From Hamadaea flava (GTDB lineage: Bacteria; Actinomycetota; Actinomycetes; Mycobacteriales; Micromonosporaceae): a DNA stretch of 64,000 nt. Positions 6,263-51,305 of this stretch are shown here, piece after piece. The stretch is taken from the NCBI RefSeq assembly GCF_024172085.1, contig NZ_JAMZDZ010000001.1, positions 5,456,001 through 5,520,000 of the forward strand, read 5' to 3'. The position numbers and the translations under genes are program-made. Position 1 is the first letter of the stretch. Each line of letters begins with the position of its first letter. The notes beneath the pieces are model-generated. The model saw only the letters and a list, made by a program, of their open reading frames with translations. It was not told where the DNA came from and ran no database searches.

Positions 6263-6531
6263 TGCTGGCCGAGTTCTTGTCCGACAACAATTTCGGGGAC
6301 ACCCGATCGGGCGGTCTGGCCGGGCCGATGGGCCTGCTTCTGATCGTCGTGCTCGGCATCGCGATCGTGCTGCTCATCCGCAATATGAGCAAGCGCATCA
6401 AGCGGCTCCCGGCCTCGTTCGACGGCGAGCCCGCCGAAGGATCTCCCGTTCAGGAGCTCCGGTACGAGAAGTCCTCCAGCTCTGCTGACCTGGTTGAGGA
6501 GGTCGAGCCGGGCCGGGACAATTCTCGATGA
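6262..6531 (+). CDS. Small single-pass membrane protein coupled to mca
   Basis: 89 residues with one strong transmembrane segment (about residues 22-42, GLLLIVVLGIAIVLLI) and a charged cytoplasmic tail. The ATG overlaps the mca stop (TGATG), so the two genes are translationally coupled. A small membrane protein in this position is a recurrent neighbour of mca in streptomycetes and relatives. It may help place the amidase near the membrane, but that is inference. Its function is unknown. Confidence 0.75.
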   Translation: MLAEFLSDNNFGDTRSGGLAGPMGLLLIVVLGIAIVLLIRNMSKRIKRLPASFDGEPAEGSPVQELRYEKSSSSADLVEEVEPGRDNSR

Positions 6532-6647
6532 TCCATGCGGTTTTTCAGCCGCGGACACTGTCGCCCGCCGAGATAACGCCGTAGCCTTCCCAGCGGGATT
6601 CGCGTCAGCGTGCCAATCAGCCGGAACCCACGAAGAGGGGGTGCGGT

Positions 6648-9188
6648 GTGCTGATGAACAGCGTGGTTCACCGCATTTCTGAGGGCTTTCGGTCCGCTAT
6701 GGACTATTTGCGGGCCGCGCTGCGACGGGCGTACCTGGCCAGCGGCGCACCCGAACTGCCCCGGCGTGCCCGGACGTTCGCCGCCTTCGCGGTCGGTGTC
6801 GCGCTGGTCGTCTCGATCGGCGGAGTGGTCTTCTCCCCAGTGGACGACTGGGTGCGGTTCGCCATCGTGGTCGGCATGGTGGTGGTCAGCCACCTCGGTC
6901 GGCTGCGCGTTCGGATCTCCGGCTCCAACTTCGCCACCGCCTGGGGCGACGCCGCCTTCATCGTCGCGGTCTGGGTCGGGCCCGACGGCTGGCTGCCCGC
7001 CGCCATGGGCCTCGGCGTCCTGCTCGCCAATCTGTTGTTGCAGGCGTTCGCCGACGAGTGGAAGCCGTTCGTCGAGATCATCCGGCGCTCGGCCAGCCTG
7101 GCGATCGCGGCCGGTCCGGCGGCGCTGGTCGCGCATCTGCTGGTCCAGGGCGAATACAAGGAGATGGTCACCCCGGACGACGGCTTCGCCCTCGCCGCGA
7201 CCGCGCTCGGCTATTCGCTGCTGACCGTCGTCATCACCTGCGTCTACACCTCGCTGCGCGACGGGCACAAGTTCAGCACGCTGATGCGGCGGGCGCTGAG
7301 CAGCATCTGGATGATGACCCTCGGCAACCTCGCGGTGGGCCTGGGGATCGTCGGCCTGCTCGGCGTGGACCTGCGCTGGCTCATCGCCCTCCCGCCGGTG
7401 CTGTGGCTGTTCCAGCAGGCGTACACGCATCGGCTGCTCGACTCGCAGGAGCGGCAGGGCTGGAACCGCTACGCCGACGCGATCCGGGCGCTGCGCCGCC
7501 ACGGCGACATCGCGGGCATCGCCAACGCCGGAGCTCGCAGCGCGCTGAGTCTGTTCCGCGCCAACGAAGTCGTCGTCGAGCTGCTGAACTCGGACGGCCC
7601 CACAATGCGATACACCGCCGGCGGCGGTCCGTTGCGCCGCAACGCGGGCGTCATCGCGTCGGTGACCCGGCCGCTGGAGGTCGCGGGCGAACAGGTCGGC
7701 ACGCTGACCCTGCATTTCGCCGGGACGGTCGGCCTTCGCAGCCGGGATCGGGCCGCGCTCGCGGCGTACGCGGACGCGCTCGGCGTCGCCTTGCACGACT
7801 CGGCGACGCACGCCGCGCTCCGGCACGCCACCGAACGCGCGGTCGACGAGGCCGTCCGTGACCCGCTGACCAAGCTCTTCAACCGGGAAGCGCTGCTGCG
7901 CCGCGGCGACGAGACGCTGCGTGGTCTCGACCGGTCGGCCGCGGTCGCCCTGCTGATGCTGGACGTCGACAACTTCAAGGAAATCAACAACACCCTGGGC
8001 CACGTCGCCGGTGACCAGTTGCTGCAGATCGCGGCCGGTCGGCTCAGCGATCTCGTCTCCGATGTGGAGCTGCTGGCCCGGCTCGGCGGCGACGAGTTCG
8101 GCCTGCTGTTGTTCGACCTTCCCGAAGACGGCACAGAACAGGCCATGCGTCAGGCCGAGCGGCAGGCGCTGCGCCGGGCCCGGCGGCTGGCCGCCGCGCT
8201 CGCCGAGCCGACCGAGATCGCCGGGGTCACCGTCTCGGCGGAGACCTCGGTGGGCGTCGTCGTGGCGGCTGCGGGCCGGGTCGACATGCCGGAACTGCTG
8301 CGTCGCGCGGATGTCGCGCTCTACCAGGCCAAAGACGGGCAGTCCTCGGTCGTCGCGTACGACCCGTCGCACGACGGCGCGAGCACGGATCGGCTGGCCC
8401 TGGTCGCCGAGATGCGTACCGCGCTCAGCCTGGACGACCAGCTGCTGGTCGCGCTGCAACCCGCGATCGACCTGTCGACCGGGGCGCCTACCGGTGTCGA
8501 GGCGCTCGCCCGCTGGGAGCATCCCCGTCGCGGCCGGTTGCACCCCAAGGACTTCGTCCGCGCGGTCGAGGCGAGCGAGCTGCTCGCACCGTTCACCCGG
8601 TACATCGTGGACAAGGCGCTGACGGCGGCCGCGTTGTGGCAGGCCGAGGGCATCGACGTGCCGGTCTCGGTCAACCTCTCGGCCCGCAACCTGCTCGACG
8701 CTGAACTGCCCGCCGACATCGGGAGGTTGCTGGACAAGCACCGCATCGAGCCCGCGCGGCTGGTTTTGGAGATCACCGAGACGGTCGTGATGAGCGACCT
8801 CCGGGTGATCGACGAAGTGCTCAACGACCTGCGGCAGCTGGGCGTACAGCTGTCCGTGGACGACTTCGGCACCGGCTACTCCTCGCTGACCTTCCTCACC
8901 CGCATCGCCGTCGACGAGGTCAAGGTGGACCGCAGCTTCGTCCGGGCCATGGGCGATTCGCCACAGGCCGCCGCGATCGTGCGGACCACCGTCGACCTCG
9001 GGCGGCAGCTCGGCTTGCGGGTGGTCGCCGAGGGCGTGGAGACCCACGAGCAGCGCCGGGTGCTCACCGACCTGGGCTGTACCGCCGCCCAAGGCTTCCA
9101 CTTCTTCCGGCCGATGCCCAGCGAAGAGATCACCGCGGCGCTGCGGAGTCTTCCAGAGCCGCCGGCCGCGCTGGCGAAACTGGCGTGA
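6648..9188 (+). CDS. Membrane GGDEF-EAL cyclic-di-GMP turnover protein
   Basis: 846-residue signalling protein. The N-terminal region (about residues 40-260) has six to eight hydrophobic segments and looks like a MASE-type sensor. A GAF-like region (about 280-395) follows, then GGDEF (active-site GGDEF at residues 480-484) and EAL (EAL at 618-620). The EAL domain keeps NLSARN, EITET, DDFGTGYSSL, KVDRSF and AEGVET, so phosphodiesterase chemistry looks intact. The GGDEF signature is also intact, but no RxxD inhibitory site precedes it, so product feedback is unlikely. The start is GTG at 6648 behind GGGGG; ATG at 6654 is possible. Its last 59 bp overlap the tail of the convergent membrane-protein gene. 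Confidence 0.93.
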   Translation: MLMNSVVHRISEGFRSAMDYLRAALRRAYLASGAPELPRRARTFAAFAVGVALVVSIGGVVFSPVDDWVRFAIVVGMVVVSHLGRLRVRISGSNFATAWGDAAFIVAVWVGPDGWLPAAMGLGVLLANLLLQAFADEWKPFVEIIRRSASLAIAAGPAALVAHLLVQGEYKEMVTPDDGFALAATALGYSLLTVVITCVYTSLRDGHKFSTLMRRALSSIWMMTLGNLAVGLGIVGLLGVDLRWLIALPPVLWLFQQAYTHRLLDSQERQGWNRYADAIRALRRHGDIAGIANAGARSALSLFRANEVVVELLNSDGPTMRYTAGGGPLRRNAGVIASVTRPLEVAGEQVGTLTLHFAGTVGLRSRDRAALAAYADALGVALHDSATHAALRHATERAVDEAVRDPLTKLFNREALLRRGDETLRGLDRSAAVALLMLDVDNFKEINNTLGHVAGDQLLQIAAGRLSDLVSDVELLARLGGDEFGLLLFDLPEDGTEQAMRQAERQALRRARRLAAALAEPTEIAGVTVSAETSVGVVVAAAGRVDMPELLRRADVALYQAKDGQSSVVAYDPSHDGASTDRLALVAEMRTALSLDDQLLVALQPAIDLSTGAPTGVEALARWEHPRRGRLHPKDFVRAVEASELLAPFTRYIVDKALTAAALWQAEGIDVPVSVNLSARNLLDAELPADIGRLLDKHRIEPARLVLEITETVVMSDLRVIDEVLNDLRQLGVQLSVDDFGTGYSSLTFLTRIAVDEVKVDRSFVRAMGDSPQAAAIVRTTVDLGRQLGLRVVAEGVETHEQRRVLTDLGCTAAQGFHFFRPMPSEEITAALRSLPEPPAALAKLA

Positions 9189-10539
9189 TCCGGTCCGCGC
9201 GGGCGGCCGGACCGGCGACGACCGCCCAGACTGCCGCGCTTGTCATGGCCAGCAGAACGACCGGAAGCAGGACCCGCCGGGCCGACGTGCCCAGGTGCCA
9301 GCCCAGGTCGTAGGGCGTGATCAGGTAGGTGAAGGTCAACACGAGCAGCTGGGCTGCCAGGACGATCCAGAGCCAGCCGTCGGAACCGAGGTCCAGCCGC
9401 CGTCGCGCCGGCCGGAGGAACACCGCTCCGGCGACGGCCACCACGACCGCCAGCAGCACCGTGACGCCGATCAACGGCTCGTACGCGGTGACGATGCTGC
9501 CGAGGCGGTGCCGGACCCCGAGGTCTCCGCGGAGCAGGTCGTCGAACCGGCCCTGCGACGCCAGATCGGACTGGCCGCCGAGCGCCCGGACGATCACCAT
9601 CCAGCTGAGCCCGGCCGCGACGGGCCACCACAGGAGCGCGACGCGACCGAGGTGGCGCCGGCCTTCCGGCGTACGCCATCGCAGGAGTCCCCGGCCGTTC
9701 CGGAGGGTCGCCACGCCCGCCACGATCAGAACCGCGACCAGGCCCTCATTCTTGGTCAGAGCGGCGACCGTCATCAGCAGCATCGCCAGGCCAGGCCGGG
9801 CGAGCGGGTCCCGGCCGAGCAACAGCAGCACAGCGGCGGCCACGACGGAGACCGAGCAGAGCACGTCGCTGTAGCCGTCGGTGGCGCCGTAGGGAAGCAG
9901 CGCCCAGGTGGCTAGGGCGACGCCGGTGGCGGCGATCCAGGACACCACCGCGTTCCCGCGTACCGTGACCGTGCGGACCGCGTACGCCGACAGCACGATG
10001 GCGGAGAAGTTGAGCACCGCCACGATCAACTGCGCCACCCGGAAGTCGACCTGGCCGAGGATCGACCAGACCGCAGCGACCGTGCCGGAGGTGAGAGGTG
10101 GATAGTCGACGTGCGAGAAGGCGTACGCCGGATTGGCGATCGCTTGCCGGGCTGCCTCGCCTCCGTGCCGGAAGTAGCCGGCGTGCAACCACCAGATGGA
10201 ATGCGAGTCCCATCCGGTGGGCTGCTTCTTGATCGTGAGGAAGGGCAGGAGCAGGACGCCGGCGACTACCGCCGACACCCACCAGGGGTCGACGAGGAAG
10301 ACCGGCCGATCGCGGCGCGACAGCCCGTATGCCAGCGCCAGTTGTCCAGCGAGAGCGATACCGCACCACAGCAGCAGCGGGCCGCCGGCGAGGAGCATGA
10401 GTCCGACCGCGGCGCTCCCGGTCAGGGCCGCGGCGAGGGGGGCCAGGAGTACGGCCGGGAGAAGCTGCCGGGTCAGGGCGAACGCCAACGGCAACCCGCC
10501 CAGGAAGAGACAAACGAGGACGACCAGCGCGTTCAGCAT
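9130..10539 (-). CDS. Polytopic membrane protein, GT-C glycosyltransferase-like
   Basis: 469 residues with roughly 11-12 hydrophobic segments. An early extracytoplasmic loop reads GWDSHSIWWLHAGYF and then HVDYPPLTS. An acidic residue in the first large loop followed by a YPP element is typical of GT-C enzymes that transfer sugars from polyprenyl-phosphate donors (GT39/GT83-like), which is my inferred class. LTKNEG near residue 265 is another pattern seen in such proteins. It starts 4 bp after the small gene at 10544, so the two are co-transcribed. Its 3' end runs 59 bp into the GGDEF-EAL gene on the other strand. Substrate unknown. Confidence 0.65.
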   Translation of the reverse strand: MLNALVVLVCLFLGGLPLAFALTRQLLPAVLLAPLAAALTGSAAVGLMLLAGGPLLLWCGIALAGQLALAYGLSRRDRPVFLVDPWWVSAVVAGVLLLPFLTIKKQPTGWDSHSIWWLHAGYFRHGGEAARQAIANPAYAFSHVDYPPLTSGTVAAVWSILGQVDFRVAQLIVAVLNFSAIVLSAYAVRTVTVRGNAVVSWIAATGVALATWALLPYGATDGYSDVLCSVSVVAAAVLLLLGRDPLARPGLAMLLMTVAALTKNEGLVAVLIVAGVATLRNGRGLLRWRTPEGRRHLGRVALLWWPVAAGLSWMVIVRALGGQSDLASQGRFDDLLRGDLGVRHRLGSIVTAYEPLIGVTVLLAVVVAVAGAVFLRPARRRLDLGSDGWLWIVLAAQLLVLTFTYLITPYDLGWHLGTSARRVLLPVVLLAMTSAAVWAVVAGPAARADRITPVSPARPAALEDSAAPR

Positions 10540-21951: not shown

Positions 21952-23964
21952 GTGAACCGGCTCGGCAGTTCGACTTCGCCCTATCTGCGCCAGCACGCGG
22001 CCAATCCGGTGGACTGGTGGCCGTGGTCCGACGCGGCTCTCGCCGAGGCCCGGGACCGGGACGTCCCGGTGCTGATCTCGGTCGGGTACGCCGCTTGCCA
22101 CTGGTGTCATGTGATGGCGCACGAGTCCTTCGAGGATCCGGTGATCGGCGCGAAGATCAACGCGAACTTCGTCGCGATCAAGGTGGACCGGGAGGAGCAT
22201 CCCGACGTCGACGCCGTCTACATGGCGGCTACGCAGGCGATGACGGGGCAGGGCGGCTGGCCGATGACCGTTTTCGCCACGCCGGACGGTGAGCCGTTCC
22301 TCTGCGGGACCTACTTCCCGCGCGACAACTTCGACCGGCTGCTGGACGCGGTCGCCGAGGCGTGGCGGGATCAGCGTGACGCCGTGCTGCGGCAGGGTGC
22401 GGCGGTGGTCGAGGCGATTGCGCCGCAGCGGCTGGGCGGCGCGGGCGGTACGCCGATCACACCGGACCTGCTCGCGCAGGCGGCTCAGCGGTTGGTGGCC
22501 GCGCATGACGTCGCGTACGGGGGATTCGGGGAGGGCGGACCGAAGTTTCCGCCGCACCTGGCGCTGCTGTTCCTGCTGCGGCATTACAAGCGGACCGGTG
22601 ACAAGGACGTCCTGGAGGTCGTCCAGCACACTGCCGAGGCGATGGCCCGGGGCGGGATCTATGACCAGGTCGGCGGCGGCTTCCACCGGTACGCGGTCGA
22701 CGGCCACTGGGTGGTGCCGCACTTCGAGAAGATGCTTTACGACAACGCGCTGCTGCTGCGGGTCTACACCGATCTGTGGCGGCTGACCGGGGACGCGTTG
22801 GCCGGCCGGGTCGCGCGGGAGACGTACGAGTGCCTCGTCCAGGACTTCTCGACGCCCGAAGGCGGGTTCCGGTCGGCGTACGACGCGGACACCGAAGGTG
22901 TGGAGGGCCTGACCTATGTGTGGACTCCGGACCAGCTTGTCGAGGCGCTCGGCGAGGAAGACGGCCGGTTCGCCGCCGACGTCTTCGGGGTGACCGCGGC
23001 CGGCAACTTCGAACACGGGGCCACCGTGCTGACCTTGGCTCGGGACGTCGACGACGCCGACCAAGCCGTACGCGATCGGTGGCGACAGGTCAAGGCGAAG
23101 CTCTTCACCGCTCGGCAGGACCGTCCGCAACCCGCGATCGACGGCAAGGTGGTGGCGGCCTGGAACGCGCTGACGATCACCGCGATCGGCGAGTACGCCC
23201 GAGTCGCCGAGGCGCTGGGCGAAGACCCCGGCGACGCGGCCGACCGGGCCGAACGGGCGGCGACGCTGCTGGCTGAGCGGCACGTCGACGCCGACGGCCG
23301 GCTCCGGCGGGTGTCGCTCGACGGCATCGTGGGGGAGCCGGCCGGCGTACTGGAGGACTATGGCTGTGTGGCCGAGGCGTTCGCCTTGATCCATCAGCTC
23401 ACCGGGGCGGCGGTCTGGCTGGAGCGCTCCGGTGCGCTCGTCGACACCGCGCTGGCGAAGTTCGTCGAGGACGGTCGGGTGTTCGACACGGCGGTGGACG
23501 CGCAGCGGCTGGTCACCCGGCCCGCCGACCCCACGGACAACGCCACGCCCAGTGGGGCTTCCGCGTTGGCCGGCGCTTTACTGGCGTACCACGCGTTGTC
23601 GGGTGAGCCGTCCTATCGCGACCGGGCCGCGGAGATCCTCGGCCAGGTCGCCGAGGTGATCGCCAAGCATCCCCGGTTCGCCGGATACAGCGCCGCCGCG
23701 GCCGAGGCGCTGCTCAGCGGCCCGGTCGAGATCGCGATCGCCACGCCCGACGCCGACCAGGCCATCGAACTCACTCGGGCGGCGATCCGGAACGCGCCGG
23801 GCGGTGCGGTCCTCGTGGTCGGCGAACCCGACCGGCCAGGGGTGCCGCTGCTCGACGGGCGTCCCCTGATCGAGGGCCGGCCGGCGGCGTACGTGTGCCG
23901 TGGGTTCGTCTGCGATCGGCCGGTCACCGACCCTGTCGGTTTGTCGACAGTACTTACCGTATAG
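21952..23964 (+). CDS. DUF255 thioredoxin-fold protein (YyaL / SPATA20 family)
   Basis: 670 residues. The N-terminal thioredoxin-like domain opens with SSTSPYLRQHAANPVDW and carries CHWCHVM (a Cys-x-x-Cys pair at about residues 46-49), then an alpha/alpha-barrel region resembling glycoside-hydrolase folds (about 190-600) including YDQVGGGFHRYAVD and PHFEKMLYDNA. This is the full YyaL/SPATA20 architecture; its activity is unsettled. GTG at 21952 follows GGAGAG at a good distance, so I prefer it to TTG at 21946. A hairpin terminator follows the stop. Confidence 0.9.
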   Translation: MNRLGSSTSPYLRQHAANPVDWWPWSDAALAEARDRDVPVLISVGYAACHWCHVMAHESFEDPVIGAKINANFVAIKVDREEHPDVDAVYMAATQAMTGQGGWPMTVFATPDGEPFLCGTYFPRDNFDRLLDAVAEAWRDQRDAVLRQGAAVVEAIAPQRLGGAGGTPITPDLLAQAAQRLVAAHDVAYGGFGEGGPKFPPHLALLFLLRHYKRTGDKDVLEVVQHTAEAMARGGIYDQVGGGFHRYAVDGHWVVPHFEKMLYDNALLLRVYTDLWRLTGDALAGRVARETYECLVQDFSTPEGGFRSAYDADTEGVEGLTYVWTPDQLVEALGEEDGRFAADVFGVTAAGNFEHGATVLTLARDVDDADQAVRDRWRQVKAKLFTARQDRPQPAIDGKVVAAWNALTITAIGEYARVAEALGEDPGDAADRAERAATLLAERHVDADGRLRRVSLDGIVGEPAGVLEDYGCVAEAFALIHQLTGAAVWLERSGALVDTALAKFVEDGRVFDTAVDAQRLVTRPADPTDNATPSGASALAGALLAYHALSGEPSYRDRAAEILGQVAEVIAKHPRFAGYSAAAAEALLSGPVEIAIATPDADQAIELTRAAIRNAPGGAVLVVGEPDRPGVPLLDGRPLIEGRPAAYVCRGFVCDRPVTDPVGLSTVLTV

Positions 23965-24011: not shown

Positions 24012-25910
24012 ATGGCCGGCCTAGGCGCACTGATCTCCTGTCCTCCGAGCGCGGCCGACGCGCTCGCCGACGCGCTCGCCGCCCGTGGCTCCGACGTCGC
24101 GCGCCACCGCGCCGGCTCGGCGACCCTGATCGTCCGGGCCGCCCTGCCCATCGTCCATGAACTGGACGGATGTGTCGCGGTCGTCGACGGCGTCGCCGAA
24201 CTCAGCGCGCTGCTTTCGGCGTATCGCCAGAAAGGCCCGAGCGGGCTGCTCGGCGGTCCGGACCCCTACGCGTTGATCTTGCGTGATCCGAAGCGCCATG
24301 GCCTCATGCTGGCTCGCAACGGTGACGGGCCGCCGCTCTACTACGCACAGACCGTGACCGGCATTCTGGTGGCCTCGGAGCCCGAGGCCCTGCTCGCGGC
24401 CGGCGTGCCCGCGGTCCCGGACCAGCAGGTGGTGGCCGATTTCCTCGACACCGGCGCGTGCGACGCGAGCGACCGGACCTTCTACACCGCCCTGCGTCGC
24501 GTGCTTCCCGGCCAGGTCCTCGCGTTGGACATCGAGGTCACCGACCACACGCCCGCGGTCTCGCGCAGACCGCGGGCGATGTCCGCGCGCATGGCGCTGC
24601 GGTGGGCGATCACTCCAGGACGCCTAGGGGTACGCCTGACGCAGGGCCCGGTTTCGGCGGCCGTCTATGGCGCGACCGAGGCCGCGGAGATCCCCGTGAA
24701 GGTGATCGCCGAGTCGGCGCAGGCGCCGCTGGCCGGCAAGCTCGATCTCGCCGAATATGTCGCCGACGTCGGTGAACCGCTGCCCGACCTGGAGAGCTAC
24801 CTGATCTGGGACACGGCGCGGCGCGTCGCGGGGGAGATCGACGCGTTGCTGGACGCCGCCCCGCCCGGTACGCACCTGGCCCGGCTCGCCGACCGGGTGG
24901 GCAGCCGATACGGCGTCGAGCTGCGGTTTCCCCGATGCGACGCGGCCGCCGACGCCGACTGGTCCGAGCTGGCCGTGTCCATGCCGCCGGTCGCGCCGCC
25001 TCCGTCCACTGCGGACGTGCTGCGGCGGATCGGCCCGGATCTCGCGGCCTCCGTGCTGCACGGCGCGCCCTCGGTCGCGGCGGTCGGCCAGCTCGGGGCC
25101 CTGCTCGACGGTGACCCGTCGGCGGCCGAAGCGCTGTTCCGGCGGCATGTCCTGGCGTACTGGCTGGCGCGGCACGCTCCGGCGACGCCGGCCGAGCCGC
25201 CGCCCGACGACGTCGTGGCGGGCGGGCGGACCTGGCGGCGTACGCCCGTCGAGACGGACATCCTGCAACCCGGCGATCCGCTGCCGGAGAAGCTCGCCTG
25301 GTACGTCGCCGAGACCGCGTCGGGTGCGACCGAACCCTGGTACGTCCTCGTCTCGGCGAAGGCGGTCGCCGTCACGCAGGGCCGGGTGCGCCCGGTCTGG
25401 GAGATCACCCCGGGCATCGCCGCCCGCTGCGTCTCAGCGCTGACCGGCGAGCCGCCCTGGCTGGCGCAGTCGGCGATCGCGTACGGCTCCGGGAGTCGGG
25501 CGATCATGGCCGCGTTCTGCGGACGACTCCGCCTGGCCCGGTTGGCCGACCGGTTCGTCACCGCTCCGATGCGGGCCGTACGCCCACCTCGGGACGCGGC
25601 GGCCGGAGCGGGCCGGATCGGCGTCACCGGGCCGCCCCGATACGGCGACGACGTCGCCCAAGAAGTGCTCGACACCCTCGCCAAAGTCCTCACCGAAGCC
25701 GAGTACGCCCAGCTCGCGGGCTGCGCCGTCGTCGGACCCACCGGACTGTGGGGCTGGGCCGGACCGGGTACACCCGACCTCGTGAGCGCCCTCGGGACAG
25801 GTGACCCCTTCGGGGATCGGCGTACGCCGGTCGTGCTCGCCTTCGCTCAGCCCTTGCGGGCTGCGCGTACGCCCGCCGGGCGCAAGCCCTCGCGCCGCCC
25901 GCGCCGCTGA
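24012..25910 (+). CDS. Pseudo-asparagine-synthetase fused to F420 gamma-glutamyl-ligase-like domain
   Basis: 632 residues in three parts. Residues 1-200 align by pattern with the class II glutamine amidotransferase half of AsnB (GPDPYALILRDPKRHGLMLARN and a proper LPG motif), but the catalytic Cys2 is replaced by Ala. Residues about 200-330 resemble the AsnB synthetase half, but the SGGLDSS ATP loop reads TQGPVSA. Residues about 413-615 (TDILQPGDPLPEKL, YVLVSAKAVAVTQGR, and the C-terminal DPFGDRRTPVVLAF) resemble the F420-0:gamma-glutamyl ligase-like family (PF01996). So two degraded catalytic halves are joined to a possible ligase domain. It sits just upstream of purK. Function unknown; the third-domain call is from pattern memory. 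Confidence 0.6.
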   Translation: MAGLGALISCPPSAADALADALAARGSDVARHRAGSATLIVRAALPIVHELDGCVAVVDGVAELSALLSAYRQKGPSGLLGGPDPYALILRDPKRHGLMLARNGDGPPLYYAQTVTGILVASEPEALLAAGVPAVPDQQVVADFLDTGACDASDRTFYTALRRVLPGQVLALDIEVTDHTPAVSRRPRAMSARMALRWAITPGRLGVRLTQGPVSAAVYGATEAAEIPVKVIAESAQAPLAGKLDLAEYVADVGEPLPDLESYLIWDTARRVAGEIDALLDAAPPGTHLARLADRVGSRYGVELRFPRCDAAADADWSELAVSMPPVAPPPSTADVLRRIGPDLAASVLHGAPSVAAVGQLGALLDGDPSAAEALFRRHVLAYWLARHAPATPAEPPPDDVVAGGRTWRRTPVETDILQPGDPLPEKLAWYVAETASGATEPWYVLVSAKAVAVTQGRVRPVWEITPGIAARCVSALTGEPPWLAQSAIAYGSGSRAIMAAFCGRLRLARLADRFVTAPMRAVRPPRDAAAGAGRIGVTGPPRYGDDVAQEVLDTLAKVLTEAEYAQLAGCAVVGPTGLWGWAGPGTPDLVSALGTGDPFGDRRTPVVLAFAQPLRAARTPAGRKPSRRPRR

Positions 25911-50534: not shown

Positions 50535-51305
50535 TCAGGGGAGCGGGGTGGTGCGGCCGAGTTCGATCGCCTCGGCGGTGCCGAGCGAGAAGAGGTCGTT
50601 GGCCGCGTCCCGGACGAGCGTCGGCACCACCGGTGCGGCGTCCGCCGTAGTGGCGGTCAGGTAGCCCCGGATCACCGCCACCGGCACCTGGTCGATCTTG
50701 CCCTTGACCAGCTCGGCCGCGGCCGCCAGCTCGTCCACCACCGCCATCTGGGTGATGTGCAGCTGGTTGCCGTGCGGATCGGTCTCGCCCCGGTGGTCGC
50801 GCAGCGGCTCCAGCCCGGCCGAGCCGAGGGCGACGTCCGTGAGGCCGTTCCGCCACGGGCGGCCCATCGTGTCGGAGACGATCACGGCGACGTCGAGCCC
50901 GCGTTCGAGCAGGTCGGACCGCAGTGAGCGGGCGGACGCGTCCGGGTCCTTGGGTAGCAGCACCAACTGTGAGCGCTCCACATTGGAGGCATCGATACCG
51001 GCGCTGGCCATGACGAAGCCGTGGTGGGTCTGCACGATCCGGGTATGCCCACGGGTGGCGACGACCCGCGCCGTCTGCGATTGCAGCGCCGCCTCCCGGG
51101 CGGCTTCCCGGTCGGGCCCCTCGGTCGGGACGGGGACGAGCGCACCCTCGGCCTTCGACACGATCTTGCTCGTGACCACCAGCACGTCGTTGTCCTGCAA
51201 CCAGGGCGCGGCCCGCATGATCAGCGCGGCGAGGTCGTCACCGGGGCGTACCTCGGGAATGCCGCGAATCGGGAGAACGGCGTAACCGCCGTCGGGGAGG
51301 GTCAC
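50535..51305 (-). CDS. fbiB: F420-0:gamma-glutamyl ligase, single-domain FbiB
   Basis: Adds L-glutamate to F420-0. 256 residues from GTG 51305, which overlaps the fbiA stop (GTGA). PIRGIPEVRPGDDLAALI, VLVVTSKIVSKAEGAL, SNVERSQLVLLPKDPD and VAVIVSDTMGRPWRNG are CofE-family elements. Mycobacterial FbiB is about 448 residues with a C-terminal FMN-binding nitroreductase-like domain that reduces dehydro-F420-0. That half is missing here, and no separate copy lies in the window. The reductase must be elsewhere, or the substrate differs. Confidence 0.85.
   Translation of the reverse strand: MTLPDGGYAVLPIRGIPEVRPGDDLAALIMRAAPWLQDNDVLVVTSKIVSKAEGALVPVPTEGPDREAAREAALQSQTARVVATRGHTRIVQTHHGFVMASAGIDASNVERSQLVLLPKDPDASARSLRSDLLERGLDVAVIVSDTMGRPWRNGLTDVALGSAGLEPLRDHRGETDPHGNQLHITQMAVVDELAAAAELVKGKIDQVPVAVIRGYLTATTADAAPVVPTLVRDAANDLFSLGTAEAIELGRTTPLP

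Follow-up and report, generated by a model that had tools for sequence, protein, structure and literature searches.

AsnB-type enzymes, among them E. coli AsnB (1ct9), the hydroxyamidotransferase TsnB9 (7ylz) and beta-lactam synthetase (1jgt), are built from an Ntn domain followed by an ATP-pyrophosphatase domain, and members of this group act on peptidoglycan, where AsnH amidates D-Asp after D-Asp ligation and AsnB1 amidates mDAP (PMC4155827). CofE, the F420-0:gamma-glutamyl ligase, whose fold is shared by the N-terminal domain of FbiB (2phn, 7uld), is an intertwined dimer (PMC8498797), and two metals and GTP are supported for it (PMC10861534). A sequence-only reading of the locus studied here proposed that a dead AsnB half and an F420-ligase-like domain are joined in a single protein, and stated that no protein of this arrangement had been described. 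Our literature searches agree, in that we found no paper describing either an AsnB::CofE fusion or AsnB pseudoenzymes, although the arrangement itself turned out to be common, and intact in many bacteria.

The gene lies in a window of 64,000 nucleotides from the soil actinobacterium Hamadaea flava (contig NZ_JAMZDZ010000001.1, positions 5,456,001 to 5,520,000; Table 1). A frame or start artefact was ruled out, because the M-x-G start and the length are kept in orthologues. The MAGLG start aligns with the MCGIA or MCGLA of intact AsnB relatives, with Ala in place of Cys2, and the N-termini of the clade to which the protein belongs (the window clade) read M-[A/S/P/T]-G. Several orthologues also end in basic tails similar to that of the window protein.

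Table 1. Fusion gene, its domains and its upstream neighbor (positions within the window)
Feature	Position	Strand	Evidence
Gene for pseudo-AsnB::pseudo-CofE fusion, 632 aa	24012..25910	+	open frame, orthologues, dN/dS, AF2 model
Class II glutamine amidotransferase (Ntn) fold, residues 1-180	24012..24551	+	fold, residue and conservation comparisons
Remnant AsnB ATP-pyrophosphatase domain, shortened, residues 181-395	24552..25196	+	residue comparison; fold match up to 390
CofE-like domain, residues 400-614	25209..25853	+	fold match to 2phn, profiles, motif alignment
Short basic tail RAARTPAGRKPSRRPRR, residues 615-632	25854..25907	+	low model confidence
DUF255 (Thioredox_DsbH / YyaL-type), 670 aa, 47 bp upstream	21952..23964	+	Pfam PF03190 E 2.4e-67

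We found that both halves of the protein have the folds proposed for them. In an AlphaFold (AF2) model built from 18 homologues (mean pLDDT 86.6) and compared by Foldseek and VIA-align, residues 2-390 match AsnB-type structures (7ylz, Z 22.6, rmsd 4.0, 373 residues; 1ct9, Z 20.1; Z 18-23 over the AsnB-family entries), and CofE is matched by residues 406-614 (2phn_B, Z 15.1, rmsd 3.1, 179 residues; 7uld, Z 14.1). Similarly, the C-domain of an intact relative matched CofE with Z 13.9, compared to 3.7 for the next fold. Homology to AsnB and CofE is weak by single sequence, such that PF01996 (F420_ligase) gave E=0.05 (13.5 bits against a cut-off of 25), GATase_7 gave E=0.003, below its gathering cut-off, TIGR01916 gave no match, and phmmer with the window protein alone against the PDB returned almost nothing (E 0.49). 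Profiles are decisive: the C-domain of the window clade matches the intact CofE-like family at 1.4e-43, and this family in turn matches FbiB/CofE at 3.5e-8. Against the PDB, the intact family gave good matches only to CofE entries (~1e-7), with one stray weak match (E=0.042), and in intact or stand-alone members the halves are named Asn_synthase and F420_ligase by Pfam and NCBIfam. The profile and fold matches thus rule out that the C-terminus resembles CofE by chance, and the fusion of a dead AsnB to a CofE-like domain is confirmed as real.

Each of the three ancestral sites has been altered. In the amidotransferase half, the glutaminase nucleophile is gone (Ala2, 24015-24017), the oxyanion Asn is Asp59 (NGE reads DGV), the PP-loop SGGLDSS reads TQGPVSA (residues 210-216, nt 24639-24659), and the GQGADE motif is deleted from the ATP-pyrophosphatase remnant. 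The lost Cys2 and PP-loop, both pointed out in the sequence-only reading, were correctly identified, and misalignment of these motifs was ruled out, as intact relatives align position by position. The protein therefore differs from the AsnB family in having neither nucleophile, oxyanion Asn nor PP-loop; beta-lactam synthetase also lacks the nucleophile but, unlike the window protein, keeps its PP-loop. In the CofE-like domain, which is remote in sequence from CofE and FbiB and whose catalytic-type residues we placed by alignment with them, AIDGPT reads AVRPPR, IDAND reads VGPTG and DNPLGQG reads DPFGD (598-602). Two positions at which FbiB and the intact family have Asp, and which are taken to belong to the two-metal/GTP site of CofE, are Arg524 (25581-25583) and Gly575 (25734-25736), and the Asn and Asp of IDAND are missing at 577 and 578. 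Nearly all or most members of the window clade lack the two aligned Asp, the Asn/Asp of IDAND and the Gln of DNPLGQG, while the Lys and Arg of the SEK..QGR motif are mostly retained. Since these metal- and nucleotide-type residues are lost, the window protein appears inactive at all three sites and is not expected to add glutamate, contrary to the earlier proposal of a glutamate-adding domain.

We located intact versions of the protein by scanning the phylum and also named genomes, whereas a collection scan with a wide alignment brought up no conserved stretch. We found 53 fully intact homologues, defined by an MCGIAG start, NGE, SGG(L/I)DSS, GQGADE and the C-domain motifs AIDGPT, IDAND and DNPLGQG, in Micromonosporaceae (L109, L112 and Salinispora L119), Glycomycetaceae, Intrasporangiaceae, Dermacoccaceae, Actinomycetaceae, Dermabacteraceae and Coriobacteriia within the Actinomycetota, and in Patescibacteria. 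These fusions (for example L112, L109, Salinispora L119, Intrasporangium L129 and Roizmanbacteria L142) have the same domain order as the window protein and are homologous to it over the full length, but they have all three sites intact, measure about 840-1000 aa and do not adjoin DUF255. In one genome (G296, L063), each part has a gene of its own; the two genes adjoin and are flanked by a yggT-like and a divIVA-like gene (named by inspection).

Among the 97 homologues in our residue tally, some counts of which include incomplete contigs or the same organism twice, 53 have all sites intact, 14 have glutaminase-site changes or a truncated N-terminus with an intact PP-loop, 14 have both AsnB sites dead and a complete CofE-like site, and 14, the window clade, are dead at all three sites; two rows are atypical. 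When C-domains were placed in a maximum-likelihood tree (67 rows), the members dead at all three sites formed one clade (100/100) with long branches. To account for the AsnB-dead, CofE-intact state, at least five changes are needed, even if only starred branches are used; the lineages concerned are Fodinicola and relatives, Geodermatophilus, Microlunatus, Dermabacter/Helcobacillus, and Intrasporangium flavum. Thus, the AsnB sites have been lost repeatedly, and selection has kept the CofE-like site except in the window clade. Since the CofE-like motifs survive in AsnB-dead lineages elsewhere but are lost here, the window clade is a derived branch, and probably a non-catalytic one. L170 (Terrabacter), L141 (a Patescibacteria group bacterium) and L229 (G472) show odd changes or an in-frame stop, which may be assembly errors, and we have not leaned on these loci, except on L229 for the presence of both motif sets in one genome.

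Other variants were noted in the same scans. Terrabacter, Terracoccus, Humibacillus and related Intrasporangiaceae carry a fusion copy that has Cys2 and most of the PP-loop but in which Asp replaces the oxyanion Asn and the glutamine-binding Arg is missing (L159, L160, L162, L164, L166, L168, L169, L194, L196 and L197); these copies look like an intermediate toward a dead glutaminase, and several of the genomes also carry a fully intact copy. A gene for an AbmR-type ATP-binding transcription factor (L090:11270-11866, + strand; NF058631, 276.6 bits), with similar genes in L085, L086, L092 and L093, adjoins or lies near AsnB-dead members. Finally, in three loci (L073:8684-10093, -; L074:3413-4798, -; L222:8162-9535, +), the CofE-like domain has a different N-terminal extension, which by eye resembles tetratricopeptide-type repeats.

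Orthologues of the window gene were found in 37 of the 301 Micromonosporaceae genomes sampled (15 of 44 genera), and the gene is under purifying selection, with a dN/dS of about 0.2. Compared to its two closest genus members, dN/dS was 0.23 and 0.19 (range 0.18-0.23 overall), with values below 0.34 in each of the three domains within this close trio; compared to the more distant G001, it was 0.46. Constraint in the window clade has moved to the N-terminal Ntn fold. Mean pairwise identities of the Ntn, PPase-like and CofE-like parts are 55/55/53% in intact forms, 41/47/71% in the AsnB-dead clade that includes Fodinicola and 61/58/89 in Dermabacter, compared to 52/39/41% in the window clade. Moreover, 48 of the 100 near-invariant columns of the window clade fall within the first 180 residues, and its new invariant residues include D59-G60, R102, D105-G106, C150-D151 and T156-F157-R162-R163. 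This shift would fit a former glutaminase fold that has become the useful part of the protein, through binding and not catalysis. The genome G472 holds a window-type copy together with a second copy that has intact CofE-like motifs (L229), and thus the window type looks like a paralogue and not like a failing original.

The DUF255 gene is a conserved neighbor of the window gene: in all 14 of 14 Micromonosporaceae members it immediately precedes the orthologue in the same orientation (gap 15-300 bp), and it is also directly upstream of the orthologue in two genomes from other families of the order. The intact fusion copies in Micromonosporaceae are not beside DUF255. Since DUF255 is present in 53 of 61 relatives, many of them without a window-type gene, the pairing may be inherited synteny. 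Titles and abstracts in the literature searched yielded nothing on the function of DUF255. Downstream of the window gene are purK- and purE-like genes (named by inspection); neighborhood genes were called with a simple GC-bias script, and some neighbor frames may be wrong.

Intact and stand-alone CofE-like relatives often have murJ as a neighbor. We found CofE-like genes directly beside murJ at eight loci in six families, a count that takes in related lineages and has no matched background count. Stand-alone CofE-like genes adjoin murJ in L071, L075, L220, L222, L224 and L226 (in L073 murJ is three genes off), and Micromonosporaceae copies with intact CofE-like motifs adjoin it in L229 and L230, the latter being the same contig as L188 and counted with it as one locus. 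The identity of murJ was confirmed by Pfam or NCBIfam in L071, L188, L220, L222, L224, L226 and L230, and the murJ/CofE-like pairs that we checked are convergent, and are not operons. In L070, a single-chain MurT-GatD fusion is directly followed by a stand-alone CofE-like gene (6371-8548 and 8833-9528, +). This placement, repeated for murJ and seen once for murT-gatD, makes it probable that the substrate of the catalytic ancestor was a peptidoglycan precursor, a view drawn from gene neighborhood alone, and the CofE-like genes beside murJ could be an unrecognised family of peptidoglycan-precursor ligases. Our literature search for murJ together with CofE-like proteins returned nothing relevant.

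As AsnB-type enzymes amidate peptidoglycan, a fused ligase and amidotransferase acting on a precursor is plausible. AsnB-type amidation by AsnH, AsnB1 or MurT-GatD offers an analogy only: in L. lactis an acidic residue is ligated and then amidated by AsnH, the logic that a fused ligase-amidase would follow. To our knowledge, the ligase of that system is not CofE-like. Conservation of the genes flanking intact fusions (guaA, gatCAB, LemA/HtpX) does not extend beyond single lineages, and these genes point to no single pathway. Mostly in Roizmanbacteria, the intact fusion has gatCAB (named by inspection) as its neighbor, with LemA- and HtpX-like genes forming part of the same conserved order (L142, L147, L148, L157, L167 and L181).

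We consider it reasonably probable that the window protein is a pseudoenzyme paralogue of an AsnB::CofE-like enzyme, with a non-catalytic binding or scaffold role, the DUF255 protein as its likeliest partner, and an ancestor that acted on peptidoglycan precursors. The ancestor would have been an AsnB-type glutamine-dependent amidotransferase fused to a CofE-like domain of the ATP/GTP-dependent glutamate-ligase type. The window protein itself would carry out neither amidation nor glutamate ligation any longer; its conserved N-terminal Ntn-fold pocket would bind a small-molecule ligand or a partner, most likely the DUF255 protein encoded immediately upstream. The CofE-like part may act as a scaffold for dimerisation, as the intertwined dimer of CofE suggests. 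The scaffold or sensor role suggested in the sequence-only reading is thus still the best one for the window protein, although it must now cover three dead sites and not only the AsnB half. A wider proposal, which we regard as tentative, is that the fusions represent an undescribed family of CofE-like ligases that work on peptidoglycan precursors with an amidotransferase, usually fused AsnB, that the AsnB half died in at least five lineages, and that the window-clade paralogue is a non-catalytic regulator or sensor acting with the DUF255 protein. Because the Ntn-fold pocket is conserved, the altered active site could still catalyse something else, and the strong conservation of this region, with its new invariant residues, would suit an enzyme that has gained a new activity on old folds. 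We think this unlikely, since the N terminus of the clade has no conserved Cys, Ser or Thr (it is A, P, S or T), no nucleotide motif was found in the window protein, and its neighbors suggest no activity.

The CofE-like domain might instead remain an active ligase of glutamate or another amino acid, with a rearranged metal site and the dead AsnB half as scaffold. Indeed, the CofE fold and the SEK..QGR Lys and Arg persist, and five other AsnB-dead lineages that keep all ligase-type residues imply that the domain can work without AsnB; we nonetheless judge this improbable, given the near-general loss of the aligned Asp, Asn and Gln and the fact that the CofE-like third is no longer the most conserved part in the window clade. 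Fast evolution on long branches, the loss of all known catalytic motifs and absence from about two thirds of Micromonosporaceae genera might be expected of a decaying leftover without function, but the low dN/dS, frames intact across genera, the near-invariant columns and the fixed position behind DUF255 make such decay very improbable. Least credible of all is a role in the F420 pathway, as a regulator or alternative ligase of F420 tail length. The genome does have F420 genes, as the sequence-only reading stated, and its own FbiB (CofE domain, PF01996, 186.9 bits) is 25 kb away in the same window (50664-51260, - strand). However, with a normal FbiB in the genome, and with the fusion in a separate, CofE-like family often beside murJ, the F420 link is unsupported. 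This family is remote from CofE/FbiB in profile comparison, and a stand-alone member scored only 24.2 bits against TIGR01916, compared to a cut-off of 180.65. As far as can be judged, the live CofE-like relatives are not F420 enzymes, and family members annotated as F420 ligases may be misnamed.

These proteins form a graded series, in which one fused protein exists in living bacteria in live, half-dead, and fully dead but selected forms. The first step of decay has been replicated independently in at least five lineages, and the series amounts to a natural experiment on the origin of pseudoenzymes and on the question of which domain is responsible for the function. Moreover, the series points to an uncharacterised family of CofE-like ligases, probably not for F420, encoded beside the gene for the lipid II flippase in several actinobacterial families.
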